Assembly (NCBI RefSeq): GCF_009707365.1
Contig: NZ_CP046122.1
Location: 1,612,001 to 1,676,000 of the forward strand
Source: Microlunatus sp. Gsoil 973
GTDB taxonomy: Bacteria > Actinomycetota > Actinomycetes > Propionibacteriales > Propionibacteriaceae
DNA length: 64,000 nucleotides
Direction of reading: 5' to 3'
Made by a program: the position numbers and the translations under genes. Positions 29,664 through 57,549 of this stretch are shown piece after piece; the first letter of the stretch is position 1, and each line of letters opens with the position of its first letter. The notes below the pieces were generated by a model. That model had not been told where the DNA came from. It made no database searches and worked only from the letters and a program-made list of their open reading frames with translations.

Positions 29664-29740
29664 CCCCGCAAGGTCAAAGTTTGACGCTGCGGCTGCGACA
29701 CGCCGAGCCGACGAGCCGGTGGGTCAACCTTTGAGGTTCG
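29664..29740 (+). repeat. Palindromic element A, locus I (single copy)
   Basis: TCAAAGTTTGA (29674-29684) preceded by GCAAGG and followed by a variant of the conserved block (GCTGCGGCTGCGACACGCCG), then TCAACCTTTGA (29724-29734), 50 bases on. The outer flanks (GCAAGG and GAGGTTCG) are partly inverted, so the whole is an imperfect 75-bp palindrome. It sits between divergent mihF and the DUF4037 gene. Confidence 0.85.
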
Positions 29741-29797
29741 GGCGGGGCCGCGGGAAATCCGGATGCGGCGGCGTCCGATGATCACCAGCATGGTCGG

Positions 29798-42145: not shown

Positions 42146-42933
42146 GCGCGAGCCCTTCGTGTCAATCGGCGCTGTGCACCGTCACATACGTTCATGAGTC
42201 CGGTTGATTCACCCGGACGATTTGTCTTGCTGCCAGCCCGTCTACGGGCAACGGCCAATTCTAGCGCCGGGCCCGCAAGGCGAGCGAGTTGATCATGTCG
42301 AGCACGCCCGACCCGGGTCCCGGGCCTTGTGCCGTGTCTCGCCCGAGCCGCAACCTCAAACTTTGAGTCAGCGACCTCCCCCACCGGCGCGCCCCGACGA
42401 TCCGCAAGGTCAAAGTTTGAGCCAACGGCCCTCGCCCCCGGCGTGTCGCAGCCGCACGATCAAACCTTGAGCTTGCGACCTCCCCCACCGGCGCGCCCCG
42501 ACAATCCGCAACGTCAAAGTTTGAGCCAACGGCCCTCGCCCCCGGCGTGTCGCCAGCCGCACGATCAAACCTTGAGCTTGCGACCTCCCCCACCGGCGCG
42601 CCCCGACAATCCGCAAGGTCAAAGTTTGAGCCAACGGCCCTCGCCCCCGGCGTGTCGCAGCCGCACGATCAAACCTTGAGCTTGCGACCTCGCCCACCGG
42701 CGCGCCCCGACAATCCGCAACGTCAAAGTTTGAGCCAACGGCCCTCGCCCCCGGCGTGTCGCAGCCGCGCGATCAAACTTTGACCTTCGCGCAAGGGAGT
42801 GGGGCCCGGCGGCGCGCGTTACGCCGGTCCGGTGGCGCGCGTCACGCGGCGCGGTGGCGCGCGCACCCGGGGGCGGCGCCGCGGGTCGCGGAGGAGAACG
42901 GGACACGCGGGGCGGGGAGCAGAACGCGTACGC
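42146..42933 (-). repeat. Gene-free 790-base gap with palindromic element A array (locus II): nine palindromes, four 104-105-bp units
   Basis: Palindromes of the TCAAA-G/C-TTTGA type start at 42356, 42410, 42460, 42514, 42565, 42619, 42669, 42723 and 42773; intervals are 54, 50, 54, 51, 54, 50, 54 and 50. They alternate between TCAAAGTTTGA and TCAAACCTTGA, making a 104-105-bp tandem unit repeated about four times with near-identical sequence (about 42,356-42,783). The conserved GTGCGGCTGCGACACGCC block reads on the minus strand. The flanks hold only a small hairpin GCCCGT-CT-ACGGGC (42236-42249) in the efp leader and, after 42,790, very GC-rich sequence without a feature I recognise. Confidence 0.92.
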
Positions 42934-53730: not shown

Positions 53731-53858
53731 GCTCGTAGTCCTCCTTGCCGCCGAGGGGTCACAAAATCCTCAATATCTGCGGCGTGTCGTCGCCTTGACG
53801 ACCCCTCGTCAGGCAGCTGCTGTGGGAGCGGGGCTTCCGGCTGTCGGCCGGGAGCGGC

Positions 53859-54528: not shown

Positions 54529-55229
54529 CGGTTCCTCTCCTGCTCGTACGTTTGTCTGCCCACGAACCCTACCGTGCTGGCCGCAGCACTCCTGCACTCA
54601 TATCCGCCGCATGGGTATCCCGGCCGAAGCGTACGAATCACGACCGCTCGTCCCGCTCGCCCAGCTCGTCGCCCGCAACGCCGTCCTGCAACCCCGGTGC
54701 CTCCTCCCCCATGGGTCAACGTTTGACCTTCCGACCCGGACCCGCCGCTCCCCGCGCCGCTCGCAAGGTCAAAGTTCGACCGTGCGGCTCCGACACGCCG
54801 AAGGTCAGAGCCCGTGGATCAACGTTTGACCTTCCCACCCGGACCCGCCGCCCCCGCGCCGCTCGCAAGATCAAAGTTTGACCGTGCGGCTCCGACACGC
54901 CGATGGTCAGAGCCCGTGGATCAACGTTTGACCTTCCCACCCGGACCCGCCGCCCCCCGCGCCGCTCGCAAGATCAAAGTTTGACCGTGCGGCTCCGACA
55001 CGCCGATGGCCAGAGCCCGTGGATCAACGTTTGACCTTGCGAACCCGAGTCCCGGTCGTCCCAAGGTCGGAGTTTGAGCTTGCGTACCCGACGCCGACTC
55101 CCCCATGGTCAAAGTTTGAGTCTGCGGATTGGGGCGAAGGGACGGCGAACTCGCCGAGATCGTCGGTGGCACCCGCTGGGCTGTGGATATCCGTACGTCC
55201 TGGCGCACGGTCCGGCCCAGACTTGCCGG
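54529..55229 (+). repeat. Gene-free 700-base gap with palindromic element A array (locus III), nine palindromes
   Basis: TCAAA/TCAAC-type 11-bp palindromes start at 54716, 54769, 54819, 54871, 54921, 54974, 55024, 55067 and 55109 (intervals 53, 50, 52, 50, 53, 50, 43, 42). The central part is a 102-103-bp tandem unit with GTGCGGCTCCGACACGCCG after every second palindrome; the last two palindromes are degenerate and more closely spaced. The array reads toward the DUF559-type gene. Bases 54,529-54,700 and 55,130-55,229 show no gene and no clear promoter. Confidence 0.92.
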
Positions 55230-56261
55230 GTGCCCACGACCGCCTGGGAACGAGAGCTGCCCTTCGCCGTACGTCCGGAGTCCGCCGCGACATTGATCGA
55301 CCAGGGGATAACCCGCGGCATCTACCGCGGCCGCGAGTGGCGTCGCGTACGGCGTGGCTATTACGTCCCTGCGAGAGCAGGGTGGCTGCCCGACGAACAA
55401 CGCTTCACCGCCGCGCAGCGGATTCTCGACGTCACGCCTGCCTTGTCGGGACAGGCGGCGCTCGCAACGTGGGCCGCGGCGTACATCTTCGGCGTCGACT
55501 GGTTGGACGGCTTCGACCCGAACACGCTCGAGGGTCTGCCGATCGACATCGTTGCCGGGGACCGCCGCCGACGGCAGCGCAAGGGAATCACCTATCGATT
55601 CACGGCGCTGCCCCACGACGAAACCGTCATCCGCCACGGAATGCGGATCACCGCTCCCATCCGTACGGCCTTCGACGGCGCGCGATGGGCCGGTTCGCTC
55701 GAGGACGGTGTGGTCTTCGTCGATGCCATCGCCCGGTTCTGCAGGCTCGATCTGGACGAGCTCAAGTCCTACGTCGCCGAGCATGCGCAATGGATCGGGA
55801 TCGAGCAGGCCACGGCGGCCGTCGCGCTGGCCATGCCGGCGGTGAAAAGCACCTGGGAGAGCCGGTTGCGGATGTGCTGGCTGATCGACGCCGCACTGCC
55901 TCCACCGCTGATCAACGTCCCGATCTTCGACCCGCGCGAGCACCTGTTGGGGATCGTCGACCTCTTCGATCCTGAATCGGGTCTTGTCGCCGAGTTCGAC
56001 GGCGGACAACACCGCGATCCCGAGCAGCATCGGCTGGACAACATCCGGGAGGAGAGTCTCGAGTCAGCCAACCTCGTGGTTGTGCGCTGCGACAAGACCG
56101 ACATACGCCGGGCCCGCCGGCAACTCGTCGACCGACTGAACGTCGGTCATCGGCGCGGCCAGGCGCGCGATCGGTCCAATGACACTTGGACTCTGCGACA
56201 GCCCGCCTGGTGGCGACGACGATCCGCGCGATGGCCGCCGGATGGCGTCCCGCTCACGTAA
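55230..56261 (+). CDS. AbiEi-like / DUF559 (Vsr-fold) protein flanked by element A
   Basis: A 343-residue soluble protein of a type frequent in actinobacteria. The N-terminal ~80 residues resemble the winged-helix AbiEi antitoxin-type domain (LIDQGITRGIYRGREWRRVRRGYYVP). A middle segment (APIRTAFDGARW) follows. The C-terminal domain looks like a DUF559/very-short-patch-repair endonuclease fold: ESRLRMCWL, then GIVDLFDPESGLVAEFDGGQH, where Glu, Asp and Glu could be the PD-(D/E)xK-type metal ligands, and LVVVRCDKTDI. Neither toxin-antitoxin nor nuclease activity is shown for this family as far as I know, and no partner toxin is adjacent. GTG 55230 is the likely start; the frame is open 52 codons upstream into the repeats. 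Element A copies lie on both sides. Confidence 0.75.
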   Translation: MPTTAWERELPFAVRPESAATLIDQGITRGIYRGREWRRVRRGYYVPARAGWLPDEQRFTAAQRILDVTPALSGQAALATWAAAYIFGVDWLDGFDPNTLEGLPIDIVAGDRRRRQRKGITYRFTALPHDETVIRHGMRITAPIRTAFDGARWAGSLEDGVVFVDAIARFCRLDLDELKSYVAEHAQWIGIEQATAAVALAMPAVKSTWESRLRMCWLIDAALPPPLINVPIFDPREHLLGIVDLFDPESGLVAEFDGGQHRDPEQHRLDNIREESLESANLVVVRCDKTDIRRARRQLVDRLNVGHRRGQARDRSNDTWTLRQPAWWRRRSARWPPDGVPLT

Positions 56262-56340
56262 CTCGCAAGCTCGAAGTTTGACCGTGCGGCTCCGACACGC
56301 CGGTCGCCCCAGCCGCAGGATCAAACTTTGAGCTTGCGGG
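56262..56340 (+). repeat. Palindromic element A, locus IV (single copy)
   Basis: TCGAAGTTTGA (56271-56281), GTGCGGCTCCGACACGCCG, then TCAAACTTTGA (56321-56331), 50 bases apart. The outer arms GCAAGCTC and GAGCTTGC are exact inverted repeats, giving the cleanest view of one unit: an about 70-bp imperfect palindrome built of two smaller palindromes. It begins immediately after the DUF559-type gene. Confidence 0.9.
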
Positions 56341-57046: not shown

Positions 57047-57549
57047 TTTCGCCCGAGCAACTGATCGGTCGCTATCACGCAGCGATGACCGCCGCCGACG
57101 CCGACGCCTTCGCCGACCTGTACGCGCCGGACGGCGTCCACGAGTTCCCGTTCTTCAACCCGTACGGAGTCACGCGACTCGAGGGACCCGCCCAGATCCG
57201 CGACTTCTACCGGCCGCTGTGGTCAGCCACTGACGTGGTCCTCGACCGCGTCCAGAGCACGGCGCTCCACCGCATCGACTCCCATACGGACGCCCATACG
57301 GACGCCCATACGGACACCCATACGGACACCCATACGGACACCCACACGGACACCCACACAGACACCCACACAGACACCGCCACCGACGGCACAGTGATCG
57401 ACGAACTGGTCTCGATGGGCCGTCGCGGACCGGACGGCCGCCCGTTCCGGCTGGCCGGACTGGTCATCCTGACCGCCCGCGAGGGCAAGATCGTCAACGT
57501 CCGGGACTACCTGGACCTGATGGGTCTGGCCGCCAGTGAAAACCGCTGA
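57040..57549 (+). CDS. NTF2/SnoaL-like protein with His-Thr-Asp repeat insert
   Basis: A 169-residue small alpha+beta barrel protein: LIGRYHAAMTAADADAFADLYAPDGVHEFPF at the N-terminus and FRLAGLVILTAREGKIVNVRDYLD at the C-terminus are typical of ketosteroid isomerase/SnoaL-like folds, so it may be an isomerase, cyclase or binding protein. Between strands two and three lies a 32-residue insert of eight 4-residue units, HTDA twice then HTDT six times (57283-57378), which is not part of the fold and is rich in potential metal ligands. ATG 57040 overlaps the operator candidate; the ribosome site is weak. Likely controlled by the adjacent TetR. Confidence 0.82.
   Translation: MNLSPEQLIGRYHAAMTAADADAFADLYAPDGVHEFPFFNPYGVTRLEGPAQIRDFYRPLWSATDVVLDRVQSTALHRIDSHTDAHTDAHTDTHTDTHTDTHTDTHTDTHTDTATDGTVIDELVSMGRRGPDGRPFRLAGLVILTAREGKIVNVRDYLDLMGLAASENR
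57283..57378 (+). repeat. Eight 12-bp coding tandem repeats
   Basis: Units of CATACGGACGCC or CACACGGACACC type, exactly 8 x 12 bases, drift from CATACGGAC to CACACAGAC along the array, as expected from stepwise duplication. The reading frame is kept in every unit; expansion or contraction would change protein length by four residues. Confidence 0.95.

Follow-up and report, generated by a model that had tools for sequence, protein, structure and literature searches.

AbiEi-Vsr-type nuclease genes bracketed by their own dispersed palindromic elements in Microlunatus sp. Gsoil 973 and other Actinomycetes

The gene at 55230..56261 and the palindromes around it

The window (the whole 64,000-nt stretch of the Microlunatus sp. 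Gsoil 973 genome analyzed here) carries a gene for a 343-aa protein with an AbiEi-like part and a nuclease-like part, and this gene is bracketed by copies of a palindromic element, designated family A. The element is ~79 nt long and comprises two TCAAASTTTGA cores, whose centers are 50 bp apart and which are part of imperfectly complementary arms; its loop often contains CGACACGCCG. The relevant features of the window are as follows.

29664..29742, + strand: dispersed family-A element (80.5 bits)
42400-42478, 42504-42583, 42609-42687, and 42713-42791, + strand: four family-A elements in tandem; a lone core is at 42356
53748..53812, + strand: family-B element CCGAGGGGTCACAAAATCC...GACCCCTCG, identified by eye, just upstream of alaS
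54716..54726, no strand: lone core palindrome TCAACGTTTGA, upstream edge
54759..54837, + strand: family-A full element, upstream tandem copy 1 (R1 model, 88.3 bits)
54861..54939, + strand: family-A full element, upstream tandem copy 2 (92.1 bits)
54964..55042, + strand: family-A full element, upstream tandem copy 3 (93.7 bits)
55067..55077, no strand: degenerate core palindrome TCGGAGTTTGA
55109..55119, no strand: lone exact core palindrome TCAAAGTTTGA
55230..56261, + strand: gene for the 343-aa protein, start codon GTG
56261..56339, + strand: family-A full two-core element, beginning at the gene's stop codon (92.3 bits)

The original prediction described nine palindromes before the gene and one full element after it, all in the same orientation. 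This was confirmed: the nine upstream cores, which are exact or degenerate forms of TCAAASTTTGA, begin at 54716, 54769, 54819, 54871, 54921, 54974, 55024, 55067, and 55109, and the common orientation holds because each of the four full elements surrounding the gene has its best score on the + strand. The upstream and downstream flanks, which contain these copies and the element at 56261..56339, align with each other with a score of 94. Farther downstream, at 57277-57396, an in-frame 12-bp tandem repeat (THTD/AHTD) was noticed in a small ORF resembling a SnoaL-type protein.

The exact core occurs 66 times in the 4.91-Mb single-contig genome, the reversed pattern does not occur, and each of 39 relatives has 0–1 exact cores. 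Chance palindromes are ruled out by these counts. With a covariance model, at least 76 family-A elements were scored at at least 42 sites. Among the matches listed, copies within a site are spaced 92–200 bp apart, with a single exception of 1297 bp; it is this pair that encloses the window gene, and no other within-site pair leaves room for a gene. Forty of 42 checked elements lie outside predicted coding sequence, whereas the coding fraction given by the same rough caller is ~65%. The arms of family A do not covary above the level of shuffled controls, and thus a folded strand as the substrate is not demonstrated; for this family, covariation does not support a hairpin. The copies in genome G038 show a few compensated pairs.

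An AbiEi-like part fused to a Vsr-type nuclease domain

The AlphaFold model of the protein, built with 16 homologues, had a pLDDT of 92.8 and was compared with the PDB using VIA-align. The C-terminal part is of the Vsr/I-Bth0305I/DUF559 type (residues 205-312). It is closest to the homing endonuclease I-Bth0305I (3r3p; residues 207-312, Z 11.1, 95 aligned, 2.3 Å), followed by the DUF559-type protein NGO0050 (3hrl; residues 205-312, Z 10.3, 93 aligned, 2.4 Å) and Vsr (1vsr; residues 206-313, Z 8.4, 98 aligned, 2.9 Å). Residues ~1-202 are AbiEi-like, consisting of a winged helix and the second domain of AbiEi, and resemble the AbiEi antitoxin (6y8q; residues 16-202, Z 9.6, 164 aligned, 5.7 Å) and Rv2827c (residues 15-203, Z 7.8, 162 aligned, 3.9 Å). 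The high rmsd of the AbiEi match is consistent with the two hinged domains of AbiEi. The proposed joining of an AbiEi-like winged helix to a PD-(D/E)xK-like domain is borne out by these folds (Z 9.6 for AbiEi and 11.1 for I-Bth0305I), and structure prediction, which had been named as one of the checks, gives a Vsr/I-Bth0305I-like fold with conserved active-site residues. These residues are E210, D244, the E255-x-D257-G motif, H261, and D270. Among 97 homologues, E210 and D244 are invariant (97/97), and E255, D257, G258, H261, and D270 are nearly so. The acidic and His residues of the putative catalytic site are thus preserved in the family.

Pfam DUF559 falls just under its cut-off in the window protein (19.5–19.7 versus 20.6 bits); DUF559 was matched in 10 of 16 family members and MTES_1575 in 5 of 16. 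PADLOC AbiEi models match the window protein weakly at 1e-5 and up to 13 of the 16 members, as might be anticipated for a defense or addiction module in which an AbiEi-like antitoxin is fused to a nuclease and the elements are self-marks. Against such a module, the window protein was not matched in phage records and had a single weak plasmid match, and no AbiEii toxin partner was recognized beside the gene, where the ORFs resemble, by their look, a TetR-type regulator and small genes on the alaS side. The module would also leave the cognate dispersed elements unexplained, and we regard it as very unlikely.

Bracketing, pairing, and turnover in other genomes

AbiEi-nuclease genes were found in 127 of 198 actinobacterial genomes sampled; named loci include those of Nocardioides ferulae, N. 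donggukensis, Aeromicrobium sp. PE09-221, and M. endophyticus. The flanks of congener homologues contain two similar hairpins round most genes, and the hairpin is different in every genome. Bracketing was measured by aligning the upstream with the downstream flank of each gene, allowing both orientations. A score of at least 40 was obtained for 41 of 58 loci; 40 is the 99th percentile of cross-locus flank pairs (with a few higher outliers, including duplicated loci), and 1.7% of random 1-kb intervals reach it. Once class-level loci were added, 72 of 97 loci scored at least 42, half of them with direct and half with inverted copies; only part of the 72 was inspected for hairpin shape, and most of those printed are hairpins. 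By this measure, the other 25 loci lack bracketing. As a control, 73 other genes near 19 tested loci were scored, and four were as high: in three of them coding or duplicated sequence is what aligns, and the fourth is due to a third copy of a hairpin next to a tested locus. The downstream copy mostly begins no more than ~25 nt from the stop codon; its upstream counterpart ends ~50–150 nt ahead of the start. In four genomes of genus g23 (G201, G245, G276, and G372), there are 3–11 AbiEi-nuclease paralogues each, and most of the tested ones have their own repeat pair. Gene and element are linked well beyond the window. This association had been anticipated by the first of two models in the original prediction, which couples the protein to the palindromes as a transposase-free (here, Y1-free) analogue of RAYT/REP, and homologues devoid of neighboring palindromes, named there as a refutation, are not the rule, since at 72 of 97 loci the gene lies between two copies of its own repeat. 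The homologues at loci L149, L150, L165, and L118 appear split by frameshifts or stops, which suggests that some gene copies are decaying.

The divergence of the elements is correlated with that of the proteins (Mantel r 0.31, p 0.001; the highest value among 999 permutations was 0.09). Elements of two loci almost never match when the proteins are less than 40% identical; of the 10 pairs with more than 60% identity, 80% have matching elements. Orthologues with ~0.8 identity in two genomes of one genus have a common element (L250/L255 and L251/L254), whereas tested paralogues within one genome have none (best score 32). The Microlunatus genome itself has a second bracketed AbiEi-nuclease paralogue at 2,262,788 (flank score 106) with its own dispersed family, B, of which at least 49 matches were found. 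The first model, requiring that the protein be tied to its palindromes, agrees with this joint divergence and with the different elements of paralogues. The second model held that the gene is cargo between two elements. In this reading, an unrelated transposase would move the elements, and the gene would lie between two copies by chance. The bracketing copies, direct or inverted, do look like the ends of a composite element. Cargo is disfavored by the pairing of every paralogue with a cognate element of its own: the element differs between paralogues of one genome and follows the protein. Moreover, no within-site family-A pair other than that around the window gene could enclose a gene among the matches listed, and the genome has no Y1 transposase. 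We consider cargo highly improbable.

When 23 elements were joined into one query and searched in 15 genomes, each genome had 4–58 matches, counts that exceed the numbers of sites because near-palindromes match both strands; the matches listed fall almost wholly in each element's own genome, and dispersed copies mostly have flanks that are unrelated to one another. Some copies in G038 (L196 and L199-L204) were seen to lie within a larger conserved repeat with common flanks, a composite of the element and other sequence. Of 147 Nocardioides genomes, 28 have a hairpin with the arms TAGTCCCTGACG (control, 0), and one hairpin pair brackets the homologue in six genomes (G034, G058, G106, G110, G130, and G142). 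For one hairpin variant, all 23 genomes with at least three copies have a homologue, and none of 21 genomes without a homologue exceeds two copies; this is a weak test of presence, with p about 0.02 by rough arithmetic. Elements differ in their presence between species: the G034 element at the L170 site is missing from the matching spacer in G146 and G158, and that at the L171 site from the matching spacer in G146 and G160, with the genes on either side retained. G158 has 14 hairpin copies at other places. Insertion junctions and target duplications could not be read because the syntenic spacers of related species are too diverged. A second type of Nocardioides hairpin, ACGTCATNCGG...CCGNATGACGT, was noticed at L170, L174, L206, and L209; at one syntenic spacer, it is retained in G034, G146, and G158, whereas the GGTAGTC element there is not.

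In G031, G034, and G055, taken as Nocardioides from named relatives in the same searches, the gene lies between pstB and pit, as read from the flanking sequence. This shared place makes vertical descent of the gene with a change of element likely, as far as sequence comparison can tell, and the gene need not move. It also bears on a free-standing homing nuclease, in which the gene would be the selfish part and the elements its recognition sites or the scars of its spread. I-Bth0305I provides the closest solved nuclease domain (Z 11.1), and its target of nearly 60 bp (PMC3943268) is about the size of the element. However, the genes are few compared with tens of elements per genome, the tested gene copies inside one genome are merely 22–67% identical, and the gene keeps its place in the three Nocardioides genomes. 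A homing nuclease of this kind appears improbable.

The copies in G034 have constant arms and loops unrelated to one another, which is not what plain copying of a recent master gives. Constant arms and free loops fit recognition of the arms, as far as can be judged from the Nocardioides copies. They also resemble binding sites, and a regulator or chromosome-organizing factor has to be considered, for which the elements would be operators and binding sites throughout the genome, with the bracketing copies serving autoregulation and termination. AbiEi-family proteins are known to autoregulate through inverted repeats (PMC7319586), the downstream copy is at the stop codon and the upstream copy near the start in most loci, and family A is devoid of arm covariation. 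A regulator would not call for the nuclease residues E210, D244, H261, and D270, which are retained in nearly all bracketed copies, and the tandem arrays, the near-identical copies in G038, and the presence or absence of elements between species resemble proliferation. Overall, we view a purely regulatory role as unlikely, though the least so of the alternatives.

Relation to REP repeats and a proposed mechanism

The reading we favor, with a probability of roughly 0.62, is a REP-like system of dispersed palindromes with an AbiEi/Vsr-type nuclease as its dedicated protein. As in the REPtrons of REPs and RAYTs (TnpA-REP), short extragenic palindromes are dispersed in the genome, a dedicated gene is flanked by copies, and the families are gene-specific (PMC3733652, PMC6006769). 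REPtrons are characterized by tens of dispersed extragenic copies and by a gene flanked by its own element; here, family A has at least 76 copies at at least 42 sites (40 of 42 checked being extragenic), and 72 of 97 loci have the flanked gene. In contrast, the enzyme of a REPtron is a Y1/HUH transposase, while an AbiEi-Vsr fusion with a hydrolytic-type active site is found here, and the elements are ~55–79 nt long compared with 20–40 bp for REPs. Y1_Tnp (PF01797) was not found in the Microlunatus genome, with a positive E. coli control, ruling out a Y1 transposase there. With no such transposase and an unrelated enzyme, the system is REPtron-like yet not a REPtron by definition. As to the REP tag at the foot of the hairpin (GTAG/CGTC), many Nocardioides elements begin with GGTAGTC, and family A has no such tag. 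CGTC-tagged REPs (Di Nocera 2013, PMC3733652) are likewise dispersed palindromes without a dedicated RAYT, but reports of them are mainly from alpha-Proteobacteria, and no linked gene was named for them.

Here, we propose a mechanism for this REP-like system. We infer that the protein binds, cuts, or spreads its elements. The AbiEi-like part would recognize the conserved arms of its own element; AbiEi and Rv2827c, whose fold residues 16-202 share (Z 9.6 and 7.8), bind 23-bp inverted repeats and not each other's (PMC7319586). Unlike these relatives, the present protein is fused to a nuclease and has no recognized AbiEii partner, as judged from the look of its neighbors. The nuclease part may nick or cut either at its own element or at some target within DNA undergoing replication, and repair or copying of the cut would then spread, restore, or keep the elements and keep the gene between two copies. 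Such a mechanism would parallel the role RAYT proteins are thought to have for REPs, with hydrolytic, metal-dependent chemistry instead of that of HUH/tyrosine enzymes. I-Bth0305I shares the EDxHD/Vsr-like nuclease fold (Z 11.1) but is a homing endonuclease of the mobile-intron type (PMC3943268), whereas the protein described here is AbiEi-fused, chromosomal, and bracketed by dispersed palindromes.

The DUF559 and MTES_1575 families, matched by 10 and 5 of the 16 members, are domain families with no assigned function, and a link to such elements was not found for them in the open-access literature. In open-access text, which leaves most subscription journals and preprints outside, no paper was found that connects dispersed palindromes with proteins of the DUF559, Vsr, or AbiEi type. 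The system seems to represent a previously undescribed counterpart of the REP repeats with their helper enzymes. It is somewhat more probable than its contrary that AbiEi-Vsr nucleases throughout the class, each keeping or spreading its own palindrome family, constitute a second, enzymatically unrelated route to REP-type repeats. Dispersed palindromes occur in many bacteria; in the open-access literature searched, the Y1 RAYT is the only enzyme linked to them, and for some REP families no enzyme is known. An AbiEi-Vsr nuclease, with its different fold and a palindrome of its own, would offer a concrete candidate for the origin of such repeats. The cognate and non-cognate gene-element pairs are a ready test set.

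A further observation concerns the loops. The 10-mer CGACACGCCG/CGGCGTGTCG recurs, in either orientation, in loops of element families that are not otherwise related, for example at 54791, 54893, 54996, 56293, and 53780 in the window and in G038, G142, L247, and L215. The 8–9-mers of CGACACGCCG occur in 9–11 of 72 loci, compared with fewer than one expected.
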